Below are positions 537 through 6,310 of a stretch of DNA of 32,446 bases, one piece after another. The DNA is from a virus. The notes under the pieces were generated by a model, which saw only the letters and a program-made list of their open reading frames with translations, searched no databases and had not been told where the DNA came from. Each line of letters starts with the position of its first letter. Positions within the stretch are counted from its first letter, which is position 1. The translations under genes and the position numbers were made by a program. The stretch is from IMG/VR virus record IMGVR_UViG_3300042987_000527, positions 1 to 32,446 of that record; one strand, given 5' to 3'.

Positions 537-566
537 AAAAGAAAAAGCCTCGCAAGCAGGCGAGGC
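537..566 (-). terminator. Terminator hairpin inside a 5' leader (attenuator-like)
   Basis: A perfect 7-bp stem GCCTCGC/GCGAGGC (547-553 with 560-566) has a 6-base loop and is followed on the minus strand by TTTTTCTTTT (complement of 546-537). The T-run directly abuts the GGAG ribosome site of the gene starting at 525. It would therefore stop transcription just before the gene unless readthrough is allowed. Confidence 0.65.
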
Positions 567-571
567 GACTG

Positions 572-593
572 ATCGGCTCGTCCCCGAACCGAT
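572..593 (-). promoter_or_regulatory. Leader hairpin upstream of the attenuator
   Basis: On the minus strand ATCGGTTCG and CGAGCCGAT form a 9-bp stem (one T-G wobble) closing a GGGA tetraloop. It sits 5 bases before the terminator hairpin and close to the start expected from the promoter at 600-629. The two hairpins would make up nearly the whole of a short attenuated transcript. Confidence 0.5.
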
Positions 594-599
594 AGATGT

Positions 600-629
600 A
601 TTATGCCACAAACGAGAACCTAGGGTCAC
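600..629 (-). promoter_or_regulatory. Possible sigma70-type promoter, leftward
   Basis: On the minus strand GTGACC (complement of 624-629, 4 of 6 to the -35 consensus) is followed after 18 bases by CATAAT (complement of 600-605, 5 of 6 to the -10 consensus). Transcription would begin near 593 and enter the two-hairpin leader. This is based on pattern only. Confidence 0.4.
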
Positions 630-5692: not shown

Positions 5693-5883
5693 TCCAAGAA
5701 TTCGCACGCGTACTGCGCGAGAAGATACGCACCGACATGAACAACTACGCCGATGATCTGGCGGGTGGTCAATGTCGCACATTTGACGAATACCAAAAAC
5801 TCTGCGGTGTCATTCAAGGTCTAGCCATTGCAGAGCGTCACCTCCTCGACCTTGCCGAGAAAGTAGAGAAATCAGATGAGTGA
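5689..5883 (+). CDS. Small hypothetical protein coupled to portal
   Basis: The 64-residue protein starts in an ATGA overlap with the portal stop and itself overlaps the next gene by 8 bases, so it is translated as part of the head operon. AAGGAG lies upstream inside the portal gene. It is helical and charged, with the segment EYQKLCGVIQGLAIAERHLLDL in the middle. I have seen similar short proteins at this position in other phages but know of no tested function. An accessory role in head assembly is inferred from context only. Confidence 0.7.
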   Translation: MIQEFARVLREKIRTDMNNYADDLAGGQCRTFDEYQKLCGVIQGLAIAERHLLDLAEKVEKSDE

Positions 5884-6310
5884 AATTCTTCTGCCCCCGG
5901 GCATTAGCCTGCCACCAACGATCCAGCCCAAAGACGAGCCGGAACAGAACGCAACGCCTGAAGAAAAGGCGACGAGTCTGCCCGACCCGACCGGTTGGAA
6001 ACTGCTCTGTGTTGTCCCCGATGTTTCCGAGAAACTCGATGGCACCGACTTGGACTTGGTCAAACCCACGTCCTTTATGAAACAGGAAGAACACGCGACC
6101 ACCGTGTTGTTCGTTATGAAAGTTGGCCCCGATGCCTACAAAGACCAAGCCAAGTTCCCCAACGGCGCTTGGTGTCAAGAGGGCGACTTTGTCTTGGTGC
6201 GAACGTACTCCGGTACCCGCTTCAAGATTTTTGGCAAGGAGTTCCGTCTGATCAATGACGATCAGGTGGACGCAGTCGTGCAAGACCCGCGTGGCATCAC
6301 ACGCGCTTGA
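5876..6310 (+). CDS. GroES-like co-chaperonin
   Basis: This 144-residue protein has a disordered, Pro-rich N-terminus (about 1-38) and then a domain that lines up with GroES along its whole length. GWKLLCVVPDV matches the first strand, TTVLFVMKVGPDAYKD the central glycine turn, CQEGDFVLVRTYSG the KVGD strand, and INDDQVDAVVQDP the C-terminal DILAIVE strand. GroES-like co-chaperonins cap the GroEL chamber; T4 gp31 does this for the capsid protein. The position just before scaffold and capsid genes supports a role in folding virion proteins with host GroEL. The usual GGIVL mobile-loop motif is absent and a stretch containing LDLVKP takes its place, so contact with GroEL may differ. The assignment is by eye and was not tested by a profile search. 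Confidence 0.75.
   Translation: MSEILLPPGISLPPTIQPKDEPEQNATPEEKATSLPDPTGWKLLCVVPDVSEKLDGTDLDLVKPTSFMKQEEHATTVLFVMKVGPDAYKDQAKFPNGAWCQEGDFVLVRTYSGTRFKIFGKEFRLINDDQVDAVVQDPRGITRA

Follow-up and report, generated by a model that had tools for sequence, protein, structure and literature searches.

A conserved hairpin at the predicted transcription start of an early operon in uncultured tailed phages, a possible signal for processive antitermination

In a 32,446-bp piece of an uncultured tailed phage (the window), a short leader on the minus strand places a hairpin, HP1, at the expected start of transcription, and this hairpin alone persists in nearly all related leaders, at a fixed position relative to the -10 element. 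Stops of terminator shape precede the first gene (gene 1) in some of these phages and the second (gene 2) in most, and it is thus probable that the phage has a means by which host RNA polymerase can ignore them. We consider it possible, at a little under even confidence, that this leader opens the first early operon at its 5' end and that HP1 is a processive antitermination signal in the manner of put or nut, the terminators serving as gates. The fuller proposal, in which HP1 would be a minimal (~22 nt) processive antitermination RNA at the transcription start of a large uncultured aquatic phage family, with a small, modular and fast-evolving protein as its partner, is more doubtful. We infer from the sequences each of three things, namely that T1, X and Y (below) act as terminators, that the polymerase gets past them, and that HP1 is responsible.

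Direct reading of the minus strand confirmed what the initial annotation had described, i.e., a two-hairpin leader whose terminator touches the ribosome site of the gene at 525. Promoter P2 (610-600) has an extended -10, TGTGG-CATAAT, with CATAAT at 605-600 and TG before it, and reaches 9/12 matches if GTGACC (629-624) is taken as its -35. Of the promoter-like pair claimed earlier, the extended -10 is kept in the relatives, as TGnTATAATAG, whereas no consistent -35 was seen in their listed leaders. HP1 runs from A593 to T572 (9 bp, one of them G.U, with loop GGGA at 584-581) and begins at the +1 expected for P2. It is followed by T1 (566-537), which consists of GCCTCGC-CTGCTT-GCGAGGC (566-547; a 7-bp GC stem with a loop of 6) and then TTTTTCTTTT (546-537); the T-run abuts the SD of gene 1, GGAG (536-533), which is conserved in A1. 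The terminator shape of T1 is genuine in the window and in the nearest relatives, in agreement with its earlier description as a terminator directly before a gene. Gene 1 occupies 525-112 (ATG at 525-523), and two more terminator-like hairpins lie on the same strand beyond it: hairpin X (112-88; ACTTGCAGACAACTCGTCTGCGAGT and a T-run) at the gene 1 stop, and hairpin Y (80-49; ACAGCGCT..GGCGCTGT and TTCTTTTCC) at a distance of 40 bases from gene 2, with TGTCAA (39-34) after it. Gene 2 starts within the last nine bases (9-1; ATG at 9-7, SD at 21-18) and extends past the window end.

Upstream of this region, and on the same strand as the leader, lies another terminator (882-859; GCCCCCAGCAGAAATGTTGGGGGC and TTTTTT), where transcripts arriving from upstream would be stopped; its equivalents are present in the related genomes G001-G005 and G008. 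T1, X, Y and this upstream terminator all fall inside 0.85 kb. A candidate sigma70-like promoter, P1 (831-802, minus strand; TGGACA-18-TATAGA), reads TTGACA-18-TATAAA in many relatives, and has at least 9/12 matches in 79 of the 91 distinct ones. The -35 of P1 is within an inverted repeat, TGTCNAA..TTNGACA, of which the half-site TGTCNAAC occurs again after hairpin Y. Between terS and the leader, also on the minus strand, is the conserved block TATTACA..AGTGTT..GGTGGGGGTGTAGTGGGGTC (748-656). This non-coding block of ~90 bases (TATTACA..AGTGTT..GGTGGGGGTRTRGTGGGGTC) adjoins the terminase genes, is highly conserved in more than 100 contigs, and may be a site for packaging or an origin.

The gene 1 reading frame, used as a query, retrieved one contig at 78% identity, and a wide gene 1 alignment was too variable to serve as a query. 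A query with the DNA block upstream of the promoter involved no selection for the leader itself; it retrieved 115 viral contigs, which, together with the earlier matches, provided 84 distinct sequences downstream of the block and 76 distinct leaders, most of them found by way of this block. A search with the gene 1 family yielded 54 loci. Close relatives of gene 1 that were found independently had the same leader upstream in every case with a correctly placed gene start, and in one locus with a misplaced gene start (L147) the leader was recovered by a covariance model. A few leaders with a misplaced -10 were excluded from the later counts, and it is to be noted that all counted relatives share descent, so that the counts do not represent independent events. 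The hairpin pattern matches L005 and L007 were unrelated.

The gene order of the near-complete relatives did not support the suggestion that the leader controls a single leftward gene in a late region. In these genomes, the early/replication arm, which diverges from the terminase, begins with gene 1. In one of them, G001 (58.7 kb), the leader opens a strand with small early genes, followed by genes for DNA polymerase A, an exonuclease, a helicase and a primase-like protein, and this early strand is divergent from the terminase and structural genes.

The promoter and HP1 are shared by some 76 distinct leaders. In 51 of 72 distinct leaders, a helix with 7 or more net pairs began 5-8 nt past the -10, compared to 5.7% of random places in gene 1; since it begins where transcription should start, HP1 is taken to be the 5'-terminal hairpin of the P2 transcript. 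Folding of the window leader gave a z of -3.3, with 2 of 200 shuffles equally good. The covariation analysis that the initial annotation had proposed bore out both stems. In 18 aligned leaders with both of them, 95.4% of the cells pair, six pairs are changed on both sides, and the covariation score is 0.275, against 0.164 for shuffled alignments (0 of 500 as high as the real one) and at most 0.078 for slid structures. HP1 also covaries in a wider set of 46 distinct rows of promoter plus HP1, although this alignment was fitted to the covariance model and is hence biased towards it. A MAFFT alignment of 35 HP1 variants misaligned the 3' strands and was left out of the counting. The covariance model of promoter plus HP1 found a single copy in the window, one strong copy in each of seven of nine long records, and a weak match in an eighth.

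In the gap between gene 1 and gene 2, terminators called by shape under a strict definition were found in the sense orientation in 46 of 67 genomes (at least two in 18 of them) and in the antisense orientation in one; shuffled sequences had fewer than 0.01 per sequence. The fold of hairpin Y, with its T-rich tail, is kept in ~70 of 74 distinct gaps despite quite different stems; the tail ends in TGTCnAA, of which the TGTCnA portion was the search anchor. T1, X and Y all have a GC-rich stem and a T-run, conserved with a strand bias, which is the shape of intrinsic terminators. Within gene 1 and the gap, no P2-like promoter was found (median best score 2.3, antisense 2.8, real promoter 15.3), these scores being for the P2 type only, so that promoters of other types inside gene 1 are possible. 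Because X and Y lie in the gap with no P2-like promoter between, gene 2 is behind up to three predicted terminators, and its expression would require readthrough. This reinforces the earlier idea of readthrough into gene 1, since gene 2 also stands behind terminators.

Several internal terminators, no P2-type promoter between them, and a conserved element at the operon start together make up the layout of an antitermination operon, and intrinsic terminators within an operon are, according to PMC8955417, a good sign that processive antitermination is at work. HP1, being universal at the transcript start, is the prime candidate for the signal. In the mechanism that we propose, a host-type RNA polymerase would start at the P2 extended -10 and make HP1 as its first RNA; HP1, either alone or with a protein (the small basic product of gene 1 or a host factor), would then mark the elongation complex, which would pass T1 before gene 1 and then X and Y before gene 2. 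Polymerases from other starts would be stopped by T1, X, Y and the 882-859 terminator. Several observations count against this mechanism. First of all, T1 is absent in many relatives, and no strict X or Y terminator was scored in one third. Secondly, at ~22 nt HP1 is small for an antiterminator made of RNA alone, and a boxA is lacking. Thirdly, transcripts from P1 would hold HP1 inside a longer RNA. Lastly, the sense terminators of G001 cluster within ~2.5 kb of the leader, and long-range antitermination is therefore not needed for the whole early arm.

The main rival, to which we assign roughly one chance in four, is that HP1 does no more than protect the mRNA against decay from its 5' end, and that T1, X and Y are imperfect terminators. 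It is well known that 5'-terminal stem-loops such as that of ompA protect mRNA from decay, and an almost tail-less 5' hairpin is the known geometry of such stabilisers; HP1, which begins at the expected +1 and leaves hardly any single-stranded tail, conforms to it. The coming and going of terminators among the relatives is also what tuning by leaky termination would predict. Nonetheless, the 5'-side GGGRA of HP1 is largely kept whether it falls in the stem or in the loop, i.e., beyond what pairing requires, which speaks against a simple stabiliser. Moreover, a series of two or three good terminators would nearly silence gene 2 and its followers, yet these genes keep their ribosome sites and intact frames. 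Leaky termination predicts a falling gradient, with much short leader RNA, some gene 1 and little gene 2.

The second hairpin is far less constant than HP1, and this bears on an alternative that we consider improbable, namely a true attenuator, in which a trans-acting signal (gene 1 or another phage protein, or a host factor on HP1) would open or close T1. By eye, the leaders were assigned to three classes: class A, which includes the window, has a GC stem and a T-run before the SD; class B has a palindrome without a T-run; and class C has no second hairpin. In L042 and L057 both T1 and a palindrome are present. Strict terminators were found in the leaders of 19 of 67 genomes in the sense orientation and in none in the antisense. 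The arrangement of hairpin, terminator and SD, covarying in the class A relatives, is indeed that of an attenuator. However, HP1 and T1 fold side by side, which leaves no switch by alternative pairing; the probability of T1 in the P2 transcript was 0.95-1.00 in the 24 leaders with T1 correctly located (it was mislocated in a 25th, L074), and no mutually exclusive antiterminator helix was found in P2 transcripts. Rfam offered no riboswitch or leader match, as nothing in the window reached the gathering score and the only matches at E up to 5 were far below the cut-off. In addition, HP1 and gene 1 are retained in the relatives of classes B and C, which have no T1, and the ligand-type attenuator offered in the initial annotation was accordingly not supported. 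We also considered, and rejected, that T1 might pair with the G-rich upstream block in P1 transcripts; such pairing is not conserved, the T1 probability ranging from 0 to 1 across the relatives.

Somewhat more remote is the view that HP1, T1, X and Y act chiefly at the DNA level, as inverted repeats bound by repressors, and that their RNA folds are incidental. In its favour, X and the class B leader palindrome share genome-specific sequence that recurs in the early region; the class B palindrome is mostly identical to the one just past gene 1 in the same genome (e.g., GGGGTAGAAACCTACCCC in L026 and GAGACAACCTGTCTC in L066). Conversely, the G.U pairs and unequal loops of HP1 and Y, and stem sequences that vary across genomes, are typical of RNA, and the T-run of T1 is oriented. 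As a separate observation, the genome-specific palindrome, GCAGACA..TGTCTGC in the window (435-419 and 108-92) and other sequences in other phages, is repeated in the early region, partly coincides with terminator stems, and is seen also in L135 (G001, 21.8-25.2 kb); such repeated palindromes are possible operators or stoperators. The least likely alternative is that a stable small RNA of ~55 nt (HP1 plus T1) with a target of its own is the main product and the downstream gene secondary, for although the two hairpins would give a small and stable transcript closed by a good terminator, such an RNA cannot arise in relatives that lack T1, and only the stems and GGGRA are kept, with no conserved single-stranded seed seen.

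Returning to antitermination, the HP1 leader may work like put or nut without belonging to either. The putL element of HK022 sits just downstream of its promoter (PMC9378689). The likeness to put consists of a cis RNA structure just past an early phage promoter, with terminators further on in the early operon; in contrast, put is ~70 nt long, with two defined stem-loops, both in contact with the polymerase, and a triplex, which together bind the beta' zinc domain, whereas here only the ~22-nt hairpin is common to the relatives, the second stem being a terminator, a palindrome or absent. With lambda N/nutL, the region shares the order of promoter, hairpin, small basic first gene, terminator and next genes. 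Unlike lambda, gene 1 has no arginine-rich start, the window has an extra terminator before gene 1, and no sequence relation was found; of the boxA and boxB that define nut, no boxA was seen on reading the listed leaders, and none can precede HP1 in the P2 transcript, since HP1 begins at its expected +1. The conAn system of pLS20 (ConAn1 protein and conAn2 RNA) also combines an RNA at the operon start and a small protein with internal terminators and protection against stray transcription, but it is known from Gram-positive plasmids, and the likeness drawn here is one of layout. The leader stem-loops of ompA and T7 gene 10 resemble HP1 in lying at or beside the mRNA 5' end; to our knowledge, these stabilising stem-loops have not been described within a system with operon-internal terminators. 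Known processive antitermination RNAs are few. If the proposal is true, an RNA this short, placed at +1 and available in dozens of natural variants with covariation, would be a simple test bed for the way in which RNA, alone or with a small protein, changes the RNA polymerase, and would open a way into early gene control in aquatic phages for which no close isolate exists.

The product of gene 1 could be the partner of HP1. It is a protein of 137 amino acids with a pI of 10.3, and belongs to a modular family of small proteins; the 79 distinct gene 1 proteins form one BLAST-connected family and are mostly basic (pI 7.7-10.5, most above 9). The family evolves fast, and its N- and C-terminal modules are exchanged. 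Two near-identical leaders, L003 and L008, are followed by different N-terminal types of gene 1, which argues against a strict partnership with HP1. Comparison of this small, basic and highly variable protein with Pfam, PHROG, PDB and BFVD produced no convincing match, and gene 1 was not found in bacterial genomes, either in prophages or in hosts. Its structure model was of moderate confidence (pLDDT 81, pTM 0.62), and a fold search with the model returned no significant match.

A search for close isolates among 50,697 phage records, by megablast, blastn and tblastn, yielded nothing related to the region or to gene 1. The relatives by TerL, namely HTVC027P, HTVC023P, DSL-LC04 and MinM2 (44-54% identity), are without the promoter and HP1 element. 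The covariance model found no credible match in five named relatives, a weak match in 023Pt_psg01 lying inside a gene. A transcriptome paper on HTVC027P, which itself has no such element, held no leader information. A GroES-like co-chaperonin gene was noted in the head gene cluster of the window (5876-6310), and a GroES-like co-chaperonin is annotated as well in the related isolates DSL-LC04, MinM2 and HTVC023P.
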